From Actinomycetes bacterium (GTDB lineage: Bacteria; Actinomycetota; Coriobacteriia; Anaerosomatales; Anaerosomataceae), in NCBI GenBank assembly GCA_021373175.1, contig JAJFTE010000038.1, positions 1-39,417 of the forward strand: 39,417 bases of DNA, written 5' to 3'. Shown here piece after piece: positions 14,552 through 21,595 of this stretch. A program made the position numbers and the translations under genes. The notes below the pieces were generated by a model. It was not told where the DNA came from, ran no database searches, and worked only from the letters and a program-made list of their open reading frames with translations. Numbering within the stretch: position 1 is the first letter of the stretch; each line of letters begins with the position of its first letter.

Positions 14552-15376
14552 CTAGAGCCCGAAGACGTGAAAGCCGGCTGGCACGGTGCGCGCGGTGACC
14601 GCGACGACCGCGACGATGAACACACCCGCGAGCGTGATCCACGCGGTGGTCCGGGCCGAGGCGCGCTGCGTGTAGTGCAGAACCAGGTACGTGCCGAAAA
14701 CGGCCCACACGACGCCCGCAAGCATCACACGCGGGTCGGCCCACCAACCCGGCGGATCGGTCTCGATGGCGCGGAACACTCCCAGGAGCAGACCCGCGGT
14801 GTATGCGGGGAACGCGAACGCGACGGCGCGCCGCTCGATCAGGTCGATGTTGGCGAGCGACGGCAGGCGCTTGAAGAGCACGTTGGTCCGATGACGCTTC
14901 AGCTGCGACTCCTGAATGAGATAGGCGAGCGCGCCCACGCCAGCGATGAAGAATCCCGCGTTCGCGAAGACGATGAGCGCCACGTGGATGCCGATCTTCC
15001 AGTTCTCCACAAGCGGCGAGGCCGCTCCCACCCGGACGCTCATGAGCTGAGAGATCACCATGAGCACGAGGGAGAGCGGCACCAGGAGCGTGCCGTAGAC
15101 CTTCACGCGAATAAGGTGCTCCATGACGAAGTACGCGAGCACCAGCGCCCATGCCGAGAGTATCAGCGTGTTCGGACCGCTCAGATCCGTGCCATGCTCG
15201 GCCACGGACCGTAGCCCGACCGACGCGGTGTGACACAGGAAGCCGGCGCCGGTCAGAAAGGTCGCGTACCACGAATACGCGGCACGCTTGCTCAGGAAGA
15301 AGTACGCGTAGAGCACCGTCGCTGCCACGTACATGACGGTCGCGAACCAGAACAGTATGACGGCGGTTTGTGCCAA
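14552..15376 (-). CDS. hemX: Cytochrome c assembly membrane protein, HemX/CcsA-like
   Basis: 274 residues if started at the TTG 15376-15374, which has GGAGG 7 nt upstream; the longer in-frame reading lacks hydrophobic character and a ribosome site. About eight membrane segments are visible, with a WWAD element in DPPGWWADPRV resembling the tryptophan-rich haem-handling motif of the CcsA/CcmC family and a conserved-looking His in WKIGIHVALIVFANAGFF. Position between ccmCD and the siroheme gene, upstream of hemA, favours HemX (a membrane effector of HemA levels in Bacillus) over a system II synthase, since no CcsB partner is seen. This assignment is partly contextual. Confidence 0.75.
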   Translation of the reverse strand: MAQTAVILFWFATVMYVAATVLYAYFFLSKRAAYSWYATFLTGAGFLCHTASVGLRSVAEHGTDLSGPNTLILSAWALVLAYFVMEHLIRVKVYGTLLVPLSLVLMVISQLMSVRVGAASPLVENWKIGIHVALIVFANAGFFIAGVGALAYLIQESQLKRHRTNVLFKRLPSLANIDLIERRAVAFAFPAYTAGLLLGVFRAIETDPPGWWADPRVMLAGVVWAVFGTYLVLHYTQRASARTTAWITLAGVFIVAVVAVTARTVPAGFHVFGL

Positions 15377-15398
15377 CGCGGTGCCTCCGACGCTCGAA

Positions 15399-15572
15399 CT
15401 ACGACTGCGCGCGGCGCTTGACGGACTCCTCGAGCACGCGGAGCTCCTTCTCAAGCCGTCCGATGCGACCGAACACCAGGTACACAAAGCCGAGCAGGCC
15501 GAGCCAGATGAGACCGTAGGCGCCGATGACATACGGCGCCTGCGGGATGACTGCAGCGTAGAGGTCGCCCAT
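15399..15572 (-). CDS. ccmD: Small CcmD-like haem exporter subunit
   Basis: 57 residues, starting at the ATG 15572-15570, 2 nt after the ccmC stop. One membrane span lies at about residues 16-35 (IGAYGLIWLGLLGFVYLVFG), followed by a charged amphipathic helix (RIGRLEKELRVLEESVKRR). This size, topology and location directly after ccmC are those of CcmD, which couples CcmABC to holo-CcmE release. Sequence conservation in this family is low, so the call rests on architecture and context. Confidence 0.75.
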   Translation of the reverse strand: MGDLYAAVIPQAPYVIGAYGLIWLGLLGFVYLVFGRIGRLEKELRVLEESVKRRAQS

Positions 15573-15574
15573 GG

Positions 15575-16267
15575 CTAGTCTCCAATCTCGATCTTGAGCG
15601 CCTCAAGGCGCTCTTTGAGCTCTTCTTCACGTAGGCGGAGCTGATAGAACGCATAGCCGAGCATGAGCATGCCGACCTGCGCGATGATGAAGGTGATGAG
15701 CATTGGTGGCTCGAGTCCCGAGCTGTTCCCAGCGCCGAAGACGACAGGGTGGATCGAGTTCAGCCAGCGGGTGATGAAGAACGAGATAGGCGCGTCGATG
15801 AACGCCAGGATGCCGAACGCCGAGGCGTAGACAGCGCGCTTCTCCTCGTCCTCCACCGAGTTGCGCAGTACAAAGTATGCGATGACCAGGAGCGTCAAAA
15901 TGAAGTATGTGGTGAGCCGCGGCTCCCACTGCCACCACACGCCCCACTCCACCTTCGTCCACAGGATGCCGGTGGCCATGGTCAGCAGCACGAAGAAGAG
16001 CGTGACCTCGGTGGCAATGCGCGCCTTGGTGTCGTAGATCCGCTCGCGGGTCGTGAGGAACTTGATCCCGTAGAACGCTGTGAAGATGAAGACGAGGAAC
16101 GACGCTTCGGCGACCGGCACGTGAAAGTAGAAGATCTTCTGAGCGAAGTCCACGCGCCCGTCCGGATACGAACTCGGCGCCGCCCAGAAGAACGTCATGA
16201 AGAACGCTGCCGAGGTCAGCAGCCCTCCCAGGCCGAGCATGATCTCGGCGAGCAGGTTTCGCTTCAT
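15575..16267 (-). CDS. ccmC: Haem exporter/ligation protein CcmC
   Basis: 230 residues from the ATG at 16267, which has AAGGGAG upstream. Six membrane segments are visible. The tryptophan-rich motif WGVWWQWEPRLT and the flanking histidines in FYFHVPVAEAS and LNSIHPVV are the haem-binding features of CcmC, which loads haem onto CcmE at the outer face of the membrane. The order ccmA-ccmB-ccmC-ccmD is the classical system I order. WEPR matches the CcmC form of the WWD domain rather than the CcmF form (WDPVE), supporting this assignment. Confidence 0.95.
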   Translation of the reverse strand: MKRNLLAEIMLGLGGLLTSAAFFMTFFWAAPSSYPDGRVDFAQKIFYFHVPVAEASFLVFIFTAFYGIKFLTTRERIYDTKARIATEVTLFFVLLTMATGILWTKVEWGVWWQWEPRLTTYFILTLLVIAYFVLRNSVEDEEKRAVYASAFGILAFIDAPISFFITRWLNSIHPVVFGAGNSSGLEPPMLITFIIAQVGMLMLGYAFYQLRLREEELKERLEALKIEIGD

Positions 16268-16290
16268 CGGCCCACTCCCTTCTAGCTCGC

Positions 16291-16998
16291 TCACACGCCC
16301 ACAACAAACTCGTAGAGGCCGTATGCGACGAGAACCATTATGACATCGAAGCCGGCAACCCACGCCATGAACAGCCAGAACGTCTGCACCGTACCCGGAC
16401 CGCCGATCACTGCGGCGAAGGTAGCACCTACGGCGGCGCGCAGGAGCGGGTACATGAGCGGCACGAACAGCACCGAGAGCATCACGTCCTTGCCCTTGGT
16501 GTTCACCGTCATCGTAGCCAGCAGCGTGCCGACTCCCGAGATGCCGATCGACGCACCCAAGAGCACGACACCGAGCAGCCAGATCGGATTGCCGATGCCC
16601 GCGCGTCCCTGCAGGAACAGAAAGGAGAACACCGGTAACGAAAGGAGTTCGACCACCATCAGGAAGAGCAGGTTGCCGGCGAACTTAGCGAAGAAGATCA
16701 CCGGCCGGTCGACCGGCGAGAGCAGCAAAGCGTCCATGCAACCTTGGTCCTTCTCGTGGACGAAGGACCGGTTGAGGCCCAGCATCGACATGAAGATGAA
16801 GGCGACCCAGATAAGGCCGGGCATCACCAGACGCACATCGAAGGTATCGCCAGCCTCGGCCAGCGCAATCTGATAAACGACCATCGTGAGCAGCGCGTAC
16901 AGGCCCATGGAGGTGACCATCTCTTTGGTTCTGAGCTCCATGACGAGGTCTTTGCGCAGAATGGCCTTGAACTGGCGCCAGCTGTTGGATCTCTCCAT
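16291..16998 (-). CDS. ccmB: Haem exporter permease CcmB
   Basis: 235 residues, six predicted membrane segments. The N-terminal FKAILRKDLVMELRTKEM, LNRSFVHEKDQGCMDALLLSPVDR and the downstream FAKFAGNLLFLMVVE follow the CcmB pattern. CcmB is the membrane half of the CcmAB ABC transporter that drives release of holo-CcmE. The start codon comes directly after the ccmA stop with no intervening base, so ccmA and ccmB are tightly coupled. A 23-nt gap precedes ccmC. Confidence 0.95.
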   Translation of the reverse strand: MERSNSWRQFKAILRKDLVMELRTKEMVTSMGLYALLTMVVYQIALAEAGDTFDVRLVMPGLIWVAFIFMSMLGLNRSFVHEKDQGCMDALLLSPVDRPVIFFAKFAGNLLFLMVVELLSLPVFSFLFLQGRAGIGNPIWLLGVVLLGASIGISGVGTLLATMTVNTKGKDVMLSVLFVPLMYPLLRAAVGATFAAVIGGPGTVQTFWLFMAWVAGFDVIMVLVAYGLYEFVVGV

Positions 16999-17730
16999 TT
17001 ACGCCACCCCCGTGCCCACGGTGGCGCGATAGGTCTCGCGAAACGTCCGGACGTCGATGTTCTGGCGCTCTTCGAACAGCACGACCTTACCGCTCGCGAG
17101 AATGAGGGCGTGAGAACACAGCTCAAGGCCCTTGTCGAGGTCATGACTGATCATCACGAACGTGTGCTCACCGCGAATCTGCGCGATGAGACCATCGAGT
17201 ATGTCCATCGCGTGAGGGTCGAGGCCCGAGTACGGCTCATCGAGGAAGAGCACGTCGGGCTTGTGCAGCAGCGCTCTGGCGATTGAAAGCCGTTGCAGCA
17301 TGCCGCGTGAGAACGTGCCCGTCACGTCGAGACGCCGGTGATCGAGCTCCACGTCGGCGAGCAGCTTGTTCACGCGCCCCTTCGGGTCCTTAAGCCCGTA
17401 CATCTCTGCGAAGAAGAGCAGGTTCTCCTCAGCGGTCAGATCGGGATACAGCAGCGGATTGTGGCTGATGAGGCCGATATGGTGCCGAAGTTCCACCGCG
17501 TCGTTCACAACGTCGTACCCGGAGACCCGCGCGGTGCCGCTGCTGGGGTTGAGCAGCGTGGTCAGCACCTTCACAAGCGTCGTCTTGCCGGCGCCGTTCG
17601 GGCCGAAGATGCTCAGGAACGCGCCTTCCGGCAGCTCGAAGGTGATGTTGTTCAACGCTTTGCGCACGCCAAAAGACCGCGTAAGCTCCCGGGTCTCAAC
17701 GGCGAGTCCGTTCCTGGCAGTCTCTTCCAT
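16999..17730 (-). CDS. ccmA: Haem exporter ATP-binding subunit CcmA
   Basis: 243 residues. Walker A is GPNGAGKTT (near residues 44-52), the ABC signature is FSRGMLQRLSIARAL, Walker B and D-loop are VLFLDEPYSGLD, and the switch histidine is in VMISHDL. The signature is FSRGM rather than LSGGQ, as is common in CcmA. It lies 7 nt after ccmF and abuts ccmB, which identifies it as CcmA rather than an unrelated ABC exporter ATPase. Confidence 0.94.
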   Translation of the reverse strand: MEETARNGLAVETRELTRSFGVRKALNNITFELPEGAFLSIFGPNGAGKTTLVKVLTTLLNPSSGTARVSGYDVVNDAVELRHHIGLISHNPLLYPDLTAEENLLFFAEMYGLKDPKGRVNKLLADVELDHRRLDVTGTFSRGMLQRLSIARALLHKPDVLFLDEPYSGLDPHAMDILDGLIAQIRGEHTFVMISHDLDKGLELCSHALILASGKVVLFEERQNIDVRTFRETYRATVGTGVA

Positions 17731-17737
17731 CTATATC

Positions 17738-19795
17738 CTACGCGGCCCGCGGCTGGCGCTTCGGCCACATGGCCAGACCGCTCCCGAGGATCGTCACGAT
17801 GAAGCCAGCCCAGACCCACCACTGCATCGGGAAGAACTTCACGGTGATGACCGCCCGCTGTTGCGCGTCCAGCCCCGAGAAAGACACAAAGATGTCCTTC
17901 AGCGGCTGCTGGATGAGTGCCACCTTCTGGGTGGACTGATTCTGCGACTTCAACTGCACGGGGAAGACCAATCTCGGTGCGATGGAGCGCATCAGCTTCC
18001 CGTTGTTGGAGACATCCATGTGCGCGGTGTAGACCGTATCTCCGTTGGGTGCGATGGAATCCTTTAGCCCGGTGAGCTCGAAGGCGTACGACCCCGCTTC
18101 GAGCTTGGAGCCCGGCTTCTGCTCGAGCGCCACCTCGTACGTCTTCACGTACATGGTCGAGCCGATGAGACCGACCAGGATGATGCCCATCCCCAGATGC
18201 GTGATGTAACCGCCGGACTGACTGCGAGCCTTGGTGAGGACGTTTAAGAACGCGGTGCCATAGCCCTCACCGCGCGCCGCCGCGCGCTTGCGCGTGCCGT
18301 CGATGAACAGGTAGATCGGCAACGCGATGGCAAGCGAGGCTGTGATAAGACCAATGAGCGCGGTCGCGTGATGAAGCGCAGAGACTCCCGTGCCGGGCGT
18401 GTAGTACGGCATCATGCCGAGCGCCCAGATGGTCACGAAGCCGATGCTGATCACCCCGGCACCCGCAACCGGCCACTTGGCCTTGCGCCAGAACGCCGGG
18501 AAACCGGCGCCGCCCCACGAAAGGATCGGGCAAACGGCCATCACCAGGATGTAGAAGATGCCGAGCGGCCTGGCAAGCGCGTTATACGTTGCAGCGCCGA
18601 AGGTAATCTTGCCGCCTGGCATCCAGGCCGGGAGCGCCGATGACACCGTGAGGTACGCGACGAGCACCGCGGCGATCAGCATGATGACGTTGTTGAAATA
18701 GTACGAGCCTTCCTTAGAGAAGATGCGCTCGAACGAATCATTGCCTTTGAGCTTGTCCCAGCGGATGGCGACACCGACCCCGGCTGCCACGAGCGCGGCG
18801 ACCATCATCGACAGAAACAGCCAGAACGAGAGCGCATCTTGCTCGAAAGCGTGCACCGAGCTCACCACGCCGGACCGGGTGATGAACGTGCCAAGCAGCA
18901 CGAAGAAGAACGTGAACGCCGACATGAGGATGGTCCAGGCTCTGAAGCCGCCCCGCTTGCGGTACACCGTCATCGAGTGCAGCAGGCCAACACCTGTGAG
19001 CCATGGCAAAATCGACGCGTTCTCGACCGGATCCCATGCCCAGTAGCCACCGAAGGCGAGCTCGATGTACGCCCAGATGGCGCCAAGCCCGATGCCGACG
19101 CCGAGCATGAGCCACGCGAAGACCGTGATGCGACTCGATATCTCGACCCACCGCTTCGACGTATCGCCCGTGATGAGCGCCGCGATCGCGAAGGCGAACG
19201 GCACCGTGAGTCCCGCATAGCCGAGGAAGAGCGCTGGCGGGTGCGCGACCATCGCCCACGTCTGCAACAGCGGGTTCATCGCTGCTTCCACGAGGAGCTT
19301 GCCGCTCGCGTCGAGGTACTGCGGCGGCAGGAGCCTGAACGGGTTGTTGAGCGGGATGAACAGTGCCGAAAGGAAGAACACCTGCACAAAGTTCAGAACG
19401 CCCAGCGCCGTCGTGGCGATCCGCTCCTTGTTCTTGAGGAAGCGAAACGCGATCCAACCGGAGAAGATCGCAAGCAGCCACTCCCAGAAAAGGAGCGAGC
19501 CTTCGCGTCCGGCCCACACGCCGCTGAGGCGATAGAGCCATGCCCAGGGACCGACGATCGTCGGGTGGTTGTCGGCCACGTACATGAGCTTGAAGTTCTC
19601 TCCGAGGAAAGCCGCGGCAAGCAGCAAAACGGCAAGCGAAGTGAAGACGAGCGTCGCGAAGGTGAGGTAGTGCCCGGCCTTGCGGGTCCCTTCGCTGCCG
19701 TCCGGCTGAGCGCCGAAGGCAATCGCACCGATCGACGCGATAGCTGAGATGCTCGCGAAGATGAGCAGTCCGTTACCGAGCGTCTGCAGATCCAT
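17738..19795 (-). CDS. ccmF: Cytochrome c haem lyase subunit CcmF
   Basis: 685 residues with about 14-15 membrane segments, normal for CcmF. The WWD domain GGYWAWDPVENASILPW is intact, preceded by AHPPALFLGYAG and followed by HSMTVYRKRGGFRAW. A large external domain near residues 560-650 precedes the final membrane segment. CcmF takes haem from CcmE and joins it to apocytochrome c. It follows ccmE by 57 nt. CcmG and CcmH partners are not in the window, as in the reduced system described for Desulfovibrio and archaea with CxxxY-type CcmE. Confidence 0.95.
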   Translation of the reverse strand: MDLQTLGNGLLIFASISAIASIGAIAFGAQPDGSEGTRKAGHYLTFATLVFTSLAVLLLAAAFLGENFKLMYVADNHPTIVGPWAWLYRLSGVWAGREGSLLFWEWLLAIFSGWIAFRFLKNKERIATTALGVLNFVQVFFLSALFIPLNNPFRLLPPQYLDASGKLLVEAAMNPLLQTWAMVAHPPALFLGYAGLTVPFAFAIAALITGDTSKRWVEISSRITVFAWLMLGVGIGLGAIWAYIELAFGGYWAWDPVENASILPWLTGVGLLHSMTVYRKRGGFRAWTILMSAFTFFFVLLGTFITRSGVVSSVHAFEQDALSFWLFLSMMVAALVAAGVGVAIRWDKLKGNDSFERIFSKEGSYYFNNVIMLIAAVLVAYLTVSSALPAWMPGGKITFGAATYNALARPLGIFYILVMAVCPILSWGGAGFPAFWRKAKWPVAGAGVISIGFVTIWALGMMPYYTPGTGVSALHHATALIGLITASLAIALPIYLFIDGTRKRAAARGEGYGTAFLNVLTKARSQSGGYITHLGMGIILVGLIGSTMYVKTYEVALEQKPGSKLEAGSYAFELTGLKDSIAPNGDTVYTAHMDVSNNGKLMRSIAPRLVFPVQLKSQNQSTQKVALIQQPLKDIFVSFSGLDAQQRAVITVKFFPMQWWVWAGFIVTILGSGLAMWPKRQPRAA

Positions 19796-19852: not shown

Positions 19853-20533
19853 CTACTTCTGTGTGTCGTCGAGTGCCACGTCCGTAGCGTTGAAGACTCC
19901 ACTATCCTCGAGCGACCCCGACAAAACGACCTTTGCGCCATCGGTCACGCCCTGCGGAAGCGCACCGTTGAATGCGACAGGCACGCTCTCCCCACCCGCC
20001 GCGAGCGTCCCGACGGTCAAGCGCTCGGCCGAACCAGCCGGCTTGATGCTGCCGTTCACGACGTAACCGGTGATCTTCACGGTGGCCACACCAAGCGTGC
20101 TCTTGAGCAACGCATCAACGGTGAGCGCGTCGGTCGCCGACGCGTACTTCGACTGGCACTGCGTGATGAGGGTCTTGGCGGTGACCGACTTGTCAGCGTT
20201 CACGATGCCGGTGACGATCGCGATCGTGCCATCGCCGAACGCGCTCGGCACCGGGCGATCCCACACGATCTTGAGGCCCTCGGCGTTGGGGTCGCCCTTG
20301 TCGCCGATCGAAAAAACGAAGGGAGACGCGTTCGGCGTCCAGGACCCCTTCACGACGGGACCATCGACCTGCACCTGCTTGCCCACGAGCGCCGTGTCCG
20401 AGCGGATCTCCGAGATGCTCTTCTTGTAGGCGCCGCCGGCGCCGGTCATGCTCGTGCCGAAAAAGAGCGCACCAACGACGATAAGGATGATCACCGTCAC
20501 GCCGATGAGGCGCTGCCTTGCTCGTTTGTTCAC
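19853..20533 (-). CDS. ccmE: Haem chaperone CcmE, CxxxY type with duplicated OB fold
   Basis: 226 residues from the GTG at 20533, with AAGGAG 8 nt upstream; typical CcmE proteins are about 140-160 residues. A basic N-terminus and one membrane anchor (residues about 9-26) lead into a first OB-fold-like domain (about 37-125) ending in the haem-binding motif C126-QSK-Y130, the Cys variant known from Desulfovibrio-type CcmE instead of HxxxY. A second domain (about 148-224; VKITGYVVNGSIK, VPVAFNGALPQGVTDG, GVFNATDVAL) again follows the CcmE OB pattern but lacks a CxxxY or HxxxY motif. This is the first gene of the ccm operon. Confidence 0.88.
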   Translation of the reverse strand: MNKRARQRLIGVTVIILIVVGALFFGTSMTGAGGAYKKSISEIRSDTALVGKQVQVDGPVVKGSWTPNASPFVFSIGDKGDPNAEGLKIVWDRPVPSAFGDGTIAIVTGIVNADKSVTAKTLITQCQSKYASATDALTVDALLKSTLGVATVKITGYVVNGSIKPAGSAERLTVGTLAAGGESVPVAFNGALPQGVTDGAKVVLSGSLEDSGVFNATDVALDDTQK

Positions 20534-20750: not shown

Positions 20751-21515
20751 CTACGTGTTGCGTCCGTAGATGATAGCGAGGCCAGTCAGCGTGAGATCGG
20801 GCTGGACGTGCGCGATCGTCTCGCACAACGGCGCCATGCGCTCGGCCAGACCGCCAGTGGCAACGACCGTGCACTCGCCTCCAAGCTCAATCCACGCGCG
20901 ACGCACCAGACCGTCAACCATCGCCGCCTCGCCAAGCATCAGTCCTGCTTGCACCGACTCGCGCGTGTTCGTCCCGATGACCTTCGCCGGCGCCTCCAGT
21001 TCGACCTTCGCAAGCCGGGCGGCGCGCGAGAAGAGCGCCTCGGCGCTGGTCTCCACGCCTGGCGCGATCGCACCGCCGAGATACGCTCCGCCAGCATCGA
21101 TGACATCAAGGGTGGTGGCCGTCCCGAAGTCCACGACGATCACAGGACCGCCGTACGCCTCGAACGCGGCCACGCCGTTCACGATGCGGTCGGCGCCGAC
21201 CTCGTGAGGATTGTCGTAGCGGATGGGCATCCCGGTCTTGAGCCCGGGACCGACAACCATCGCCGCGACGCCCGTCGCTCGCAGCGCCATCTCCTCGTAC
21301 TGCGTCGTGAGCGTCGGCACTACCGAAGAAAGCACCACCCGCGCGACAGAGCCCCAGGACAGGCCATCGAGGGCGAGCAACCCGCCGATCTTCACCCGTA
21401 GCTCATCGGCGGTAAGCGTCGCGTCGGTCGCGACGCGCCAGTGTCCGTCAAGCTGTCCGGCCTGAAGCAGGCCGAGCGCCGTCTGTGTGTTTCCCACATC
21501 CACGGCGAGGATCAT
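20751..21515 (-). CDS. coaX: Type III pantothenate kinase
   Basis: 254 residues from the ATG at 21515 (MILAVDVGNTQT, the family's phosphate-binding beginning, with GGAG 7 nt upstream). Other motifs: GADRIVNGVAAFEAYG, VIVVDFGTATTLDVID, GGAIAPGVETSAEALF and the C-terminal VVATGGLA. CoaX phosphorylates pantothenate with ATP, the first step of coenzyme A synthesis. It appears monocistronic, ending in a terminator-like hairpin, and is divergent from the response regulator gene. Confidence 0.96.
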   Translation of the reverse strand: MILAVDVGNTQTALGLLQAGQLDGHWRVATDATLTADELRVKIGGLLALDGLSWGSVARVVLSSVVPTLTTQYEEMALRATGVAAMVVGPGLKTGMPIRYDNPHEVGADRIVNGVAAFEAYGGPVIVVDFGTATTLDVIDAGGAYLGGAIAPGVETSAEALFSRAARLAKVELEAPAKVIGTNTRESVQAGLMLGEAAMVDGLVRRAWIELGGECTVVATGGLAERMAPLCETIAHVQPDLTLTGLAIIYGRNT

Positions 21516-21595
21516 CGTTGGCTCCGTTCTCGTGTCGTGCGCGCCTCGCGGCGCTGACGTCTGGTCAACGCGGGGAAGAACGCCAGGTAACGCGG

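Follow-up and report, generated by a model that had tools for sequence, protein, structure and literature searches.

The ccmE gene of the window (the whole stretch of DNA analysed, 39,417 nucleotides) encodes a CxxxY CcmE that carries a lineage-wide extra module: its haem-binding OB domain is followed, within the same frame, by a second CcmE-type OB domain devoid of the haem motif. The two-domain protein apparently constitutes an undescribed variant of a known machine; in the non-subscription literature searched, no description of a two-domain CcmE, or of the CcmE of Coriobacteriia, was found.

Domain architecture

The gene starts with a GTG codon and its product has the following parts:

19853..20533, minus strand: ccmE, 226 aa, tandem CcmE with a putative transmembrane anchor, haem-binding OB domain 1, and motif-less OB domain 2
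20444..20527, minus strand: N-terminal membrane helix, residues 3-30 (predicted, hydrophobic)
20138..20428, minus strand: domain 1, CcmE OB fold, residues 36-132 (PF03100, 43.9 bits, profile positions 3-98)
20144..20158, minus strand: haem motif C126-QSK-Y130 (CPSKY in nearly all relatives)
19856..20134, minus strand: linker and domain 2, residues 134-226, predicted motif-less CcmE OB fold
19874-20089, minus strand: PF03100 match of domain 2 (41.6 bits, profile positions 19-89, residues approximately 151-220)

By analogy with E. coli CcmE, residues 3-30 probably serve as a membrane anchor. Both PF03100 matches lie in one frame and exceed the curated cut-off of 24.6 bits; the internal repeat is therefore real and far beyond chance. 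The last 78 residues, searched alone against the Pfam CcmE family, give an E-value of 1.1e-10. NCBIfam CcmE models also match the protein, with every score below the curated cut-off. Instead of the usual single OB domain with a flexible tail, the window CcmE thus contains a second OB domain at residues 151-220, and its length compares with 159 aa in E. coli and mostly 130-190 aa in the single-domain CcmE proteins (open frames) of the phylum, which makes the originally predicted excess of 70-80 residues a fair estimate. The reading frame on the minus strand, the C126-QSK-Y130 motif, and the C-terminal stretches VPVAFNGALPQGVTDG and GVFNATDVAL that had been pointed out are all present in the sequence. 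The glutamine of the motif (Q127, position 20156) is unusual, as the residue is proline in 57 of 58 aligned proteins (CPSKY). An assembly or frame-shift artefact was considered as well, and is ruled out by 70 double open reading frames, full-length or nearly so, from other genomes.

Fold and family of the second domain

An AlphaFold2 model of the whole protein, calculated with 58 relatives from the class, has a mean pLDDT of 90.5 and a pTM of 0.62, values which suggest that each domain is well predicted, with an insecure mutual placement and an unproven contact between the domains. Modelled alone, residues 134-226 (pLDDT 89.1, pTM 0.79) form a five-stranded OB fold. The first two Foldseek hits of this isolated model are both E. 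coli CcmE structures (8ce8_E, 3.5e-5, and 1sr3, 3.0e-4). VIA-align also places 1sr3 first (Z 11.8 over 90 residues, 24% identity, E. coli residues 35-133), close to the Z-score of 11.6 obtained for domain 1 with the same structure. With other OB folds trailing by only about one Z unit, the family could not be identified from the fold by itself.

The family is named by sequence profiles. A single-sequence search of the PDB reached an E-value of 0.16 only, and a profile was needed to reach CcmE: the domain 2 profile retrieved the CcmE entries 1sr3, 8ce8, 2kct, and 1j6q at 1.7e-10 to 1.8e-8, with no non-CcmE entry below 0.05. Comparison of the domain 1 and domain 2 profiles with hhalign gave a probability of 99.3% (E 6.7e-21). 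On this profile evidence, domain 2 is a copy of the CcmE OB domain. The two Pfam matches, the hhalign result, and the domain 2 model bear out the original prediction of an internal CcmE duplication with a motif-less second copy. Two findings could have spoken against it, i.e., a different fold of the C-terminal part or a lack of similarity to CcmE in profile searches; the isolated domain is predicted to be an OB fold with E. coli CcmE as its best PDB matches, and the similarity extends to 1.7e-10 in the PDB and, for the C-terminal 78 residues, to the Pfam value given above.

Haem residues and selection

Residues F103, L127, H130, and Y134 of E. coli CcmE presumably constitute its haem patch. 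H130 and Y134 are documented as haem positions (PMC10457321, PMC3884852). In the 70 double proteins aligned to E. coli CcmE (full or nearly full sequences), domain 1 invariably retains Phe at the F103 position, Cys at the H130 position, and Tyr at the Y134 position (70/70 each); the motif reads CPSKY in 66 proteins, CPSRY in two, CPTKY in one, and CQSKY in the window protein. In domain 2, these positions are lost or not conserved. The F103 position is occupied by Met, Val, Phe, Ile, or Ala, the L127 position by Ala or Ser, and the H130 position by mixed, mostly acidic residues, and the domain stops short of Y134. An H/CxxxY motif is absent from domain 2 in all 70 proteins, the set has no conserved Cys, His, or Met as a substitute, and domain 2 of the window protein has no Cys.

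The OB core of domain 2 is conserved: G206 is invariant, and G156, R171, F172, V203, G212, F214, and V219 are nearly so. Pairwise dN/dS is approximately 0.1-0.2 for both domains in most pairs. In 11 of 13 close pairs the domain 2 value lies at about 0.08-0.18, not far from that of domain 1; the two outliers (0.36 and 0.00) come from very close pairs with few changes. Such low values indicate that domain 2 is maintained by purifying selection and is not a decaying remnant.

Distribution and origin of the two-domain form

The sampling covered the family, the order, 396 genomes of the class, and the phylum outside the class; the 70 double proteins were read, and the other class genomes are represented by match counts. 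The genome of the window (2.15 Mb) is 99% complete. A near relative, 81% identical and the sole match in a scan of named genomes, is HGW-Actinobacteria-6, which we take to belong to the class Coriobacteriia. Within the family, two CcmE matches were found in 25 of 26 genomes with CcmE, and in the remaining genome the sequence is truncated where the contig stops. CcmE is encoded by 65 of 69 genomes of the order, and almost all of these show both matches within a single frame. In the class, 219 of 396 genomes have a CcmE match, and all but six have at least two. Among these six, domain 2 was revealed by the sensitive profile A2 in two (G027 and G038), one match ends with its contig (G011), one is partial (G037), one consists of the CcmF insert described below only (G045), and one is a weak match within a repeat protein of 415 aa (L156 in G308), which was set aside as a carrier of an OB-like domain. 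An 82-aa match in L155, abutting a run of N directly before a CcmF-like frame, probably represents the end of a further double ccmE.

Outside the class, the 145 genomes of the phylum with CcmE each have a single match, in a short frame; the two-match cases listed there consist of separate genes or lie on separate contigs. The two-domain CcmE is thus the rule throughout Coriobacteriia, and CcmE is single-domain elsewhere in the phylum. The recurrence of the same form across the class marks it as a real variant. An internal duplication had been called unusual, which is correct in comparison with textbook CcmE but not within the class.

In the phylogenetic tree, the domain 1 copies form one group and the domain 2 copies another, a pattern that fits one origin no later than the base of the class. 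The two domains together form one clade with a support of 85 (89 columns only), and a tree with domain 2 placed beside the first gene of a tandem ccmE pair (f74/f93) is at least as likely (p-AU 0.88). On these 89 columns, domain 1 and a ccmE paralogue are both eligible as the source of domain 2.

Several other CcmE arrangements were encountered. One class genome (G322) encodes two paralogous double CcmE genes, on contigs C27 and C28. Elsewhere in the phylum (L100, L101, L107, and G436/G624), ccmF is preceded by two distinct ccmE genes lying side by side; in L100, L101, and L107 one gene of the pair has CPENY or CPDNY and the other CPSKY. Single-domain CcmE proteins in L087, L090, L096, L097, and L099 have a motif in which Phe replaces Tyr (CPSKF, CSSKF, and CASRF), so that the axial ligand would be lost. 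In family f15, membrane-anchored proteins with a motif-less CcmE-like OB domain (L127:884-2113, plus strand, and L128:2105-2590, plus strand) are encoded next to an ABC ATPase gene; the L127 protein also has a weak PepSY match.

The ccm locus

The window ccmE lies in a cluster of minus-strand genes:

20751..21533, minus strand: coaX, type III pantothenate kinase, upstream neighbour outside the ccm system
17738..19795, minus strand: ccmF, haem lyase, 685 aa, next gene downstream of ccmE, without an OB insert
16999..17730, minus strand: ccmA, ABC ATPase
16291..16998, minus strand: ccmB (PF03379, 82.8 bits)
15575..16270, minus strand: ccmC (PF01578; TIGR01191 below cut-off)
14552..15532, minus strand: CcsA/HemX-like membrane protein, next after ccmC (PF01578)

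Read along the minus strand, the order is coaX, ccmE, ccmF, ccmA, ccmB, ccmC, the CcsA/HemX-like gene, and a siroheme-synthase-like gene. The succession ccmE-ccmF-ccmA-ccmB-ccmC, with ccmE directly before ccmF, recurs in the class loci read. A candidate substrate in the window genome is an open frame with four CXXCH motifs (L133), whose full-length Pfam match falls just below cut-off. In other members of the class, NrfA-like and cytochrome c3-like genes adjoin ccmE (L124).

A domain 2-like insert in CcmF

Two MAGs of one genus from the same order encode a CcmF that contains a domain 2-like OB insert:

L109:1992-4445, plus strand: CcmF with insert (G048)
L111:2034-4199, minus strand: CcmF with insert (G045)

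The insert adds 96 residues between LSPALNxWTPGG and PATFDxLARPxG. Its PF03100 matches are weak and under cut-off (8e-4 and 1.4e-4); the domain 2 profile scores highest (48 bits in G048 and 47 bits in G045), ahead of the profiles of domain 1 (38/25) and single CcmE (26/29). In the tree, the inserts fall inside domain 2 (SH-aLRT 94 for the enclosing group). In MAGs of the same genus that lack the insert, the loop is either plain, reading LSPAVKGPTFS... (L151), or a little longer (L152), which indicates that the insert was gained. The hydrophobicity pattern places the loop after an outward-leading membrane helix, so it should be periplasmic. Divergence is faster in the insert than in the remainder of CcmF (67% versus 85-89% identity; dN/dS 0.36 versus 0.17-0.25 in the flanks), and the insert is present in only two of the 69 genomes of the order. 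As ccmE and ccmF are adjacent, it may be a recombination accident; it nevertheless hints that the receiving partner, too, can benefit from a haem-dead OB module.

Possible role of the second domain

CcmE must dock both CcmC/CcmB and CcmF, and models place H130 near P-His2 of CcmF (PMC8975832, PMC10457321). In the AF2Complex model of the E. coli system, the haem site of CcmE faces that of CcmF, with extra contacts to CcmH (PMC8975832). By these contacts, the CcmH-less class would have an interface that another module might fill, although the existence of single-domain CcmH-less systems indicates that filling it is not obligatory.

The explanation that we favour, with a probability a little better than even, is that domain 2 is a haem-dead protein-binding module which lies over the haem face of domain 1, docks on CcmF for hand-over, or does both. 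Domain 1 would take haem at CcmC and hold it on Cys126, with Tyr130, judging from the family, as the likely axial ligand; the haem Cys of a CxxxY CcmE is essential in Methanosarcina acetivorans (PMC9084895). Since domain 2 starts a few residues past Tyr130, the flexible haem tail of ordinary CcmE would now form a hinge between two barrels. Domain 2 would make no haem contacts and would be retained for protein binding; by covering the haem face, docking CcmF, or both, it might allow haem to be handed over without CcmH. We infer this covering or docking role with moderate confidence. A haem clamp, as the original prediction suggested, is possible and compatible with the evidence.

A more elaborate version appears doubtful, if still worth consideration: the two domains would act as a pseudo-dimer with haem on the hinge, the dead copy would be both lid and CcmF-docking half, and, in one lineage, a copy of the lid would have moved onto the haem lyase. 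Such a hand-over by a lid, if true, is not known in any Ccm system and would suit a CcmH-less one.

Rather unlikely is a purely structural part for domain 2 as a spacer or stabiliser that has no specific partners and, for instance, lifts or shields the haem tail in the Gram-positive envelope. Loss of the haem residues with retention of the fold residues G206, G212, F214, and V219 would be expected of such a spacer, as would its constant presence; purifying selection near the level of domain 1 and the in-frame domain 2-like OB in CcmF suggest instead a specific surface.

That domain 2 replaces a missing CcmH (or CcmI), presenting or reducing the apocytochrome at CcmF, seems improbable. The premise of this original suggestion holds: a profile search for CcmH (PF03918; positive in 4 of 14 control genomes) gave no match in the window genome, and all 25 genomes with CcmE that represent the class in the phylum sample lack CcmH. 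The replacement itself does not follow. Among the 145 genomes with CcmE in the rest of the phylum, 35 also lack CcmH, and none of these 35 has two CcmE matches in one frame. In the 11 CcmH-less loci read from outside the class (eight CPSKY and three CPSKF/CASRF), CcmE is single-domain throughout. In the phylum loci read, every HxxxY CcmE co-occurs with CcmH, and all eight single-domain CPSKY proteins without a neighbouring second ccmE lack it. The loss of CcmH thus tracks the Cys motif, in single-domain CcmE as well, and domain 2 is not required for it. CxxxY systems of Desulfovibrio and archaea also function without CcmH (PMC9084895, PMC3884852). Moreover, CcmH is a three-helix bundle with a CXXC motif, whereas domain 2 is predicted to be a β-barrel; it lacks both a conserved Cys and a helical domain bearing a CXXC of the CcmH type.

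A second haem site in domain 2, forming a two-haem relay without a C/HxxxY motif, would agree with the homologous fold and is very improbable given that the four haem-patch positions are lost or unconserved in 70 of 70 proteins and that no conserved Cys, His, or Met takes their place. Equally remote is the possibility that domain 2 persists as a neutral remnant of an ancient duplication or of a gene fusion: the adjacent ccmE pairs of L100, L101, and L107 show that duplications happen, and the tree allows domain 2 to descend either from such a paralogue or from domain 1, but domain 2 occurs in essentially every CcmE of the class, in many families, with a dN/dS of about 0.1.

Significance and comparison with known systems

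How CcmE recognizes CcmC and CcmF, and how haem is protected in between, is an open question in cytochrome c maturation. The two-domain CcmE would split haem carrying and docking or covering into separable domains, and it is fixed in a whole class of actinobacteria, most of them anaerobes, whose multihaem cytochromes are made in the absence of CcmH. The CcmF with a domain 2-like insert gives additional, evolutionary access to the hand-over interface. Database entries named CcmE from Coriobacteriia should not be taken for ordinary one-domain CcmE.

The CxxxY CcmE proteins of Desulfovibrio and archaea (2KCT; D. desulfuricans and M. acetivorans) share with the window protein the N-terminal anchor, the OB fold, the conserved Tyr, and the CcmH-less setting (PMC3884852, PMC9084895); they have been described with one OB fold, whereas the window CcmE has a motif-less OB domain after the motif. 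Single-domain CPSKY proteins of the same phylum (e.g., L093, L095, L098, and L104) are similar in the type of motif, in the gene order ccmE-ccmF-ccmA-ccmB-ccmC, and in the absence of CcmH, but their frames of 130-157 aa end soon past the motif. E. coli CcmE (HxxxY; 1SR3 and 8CE8) has the fold common to both window domains and differs in having His for Cys, a single domain, a flexible tail in place of domain 2, and CcmH as a partner in its system.
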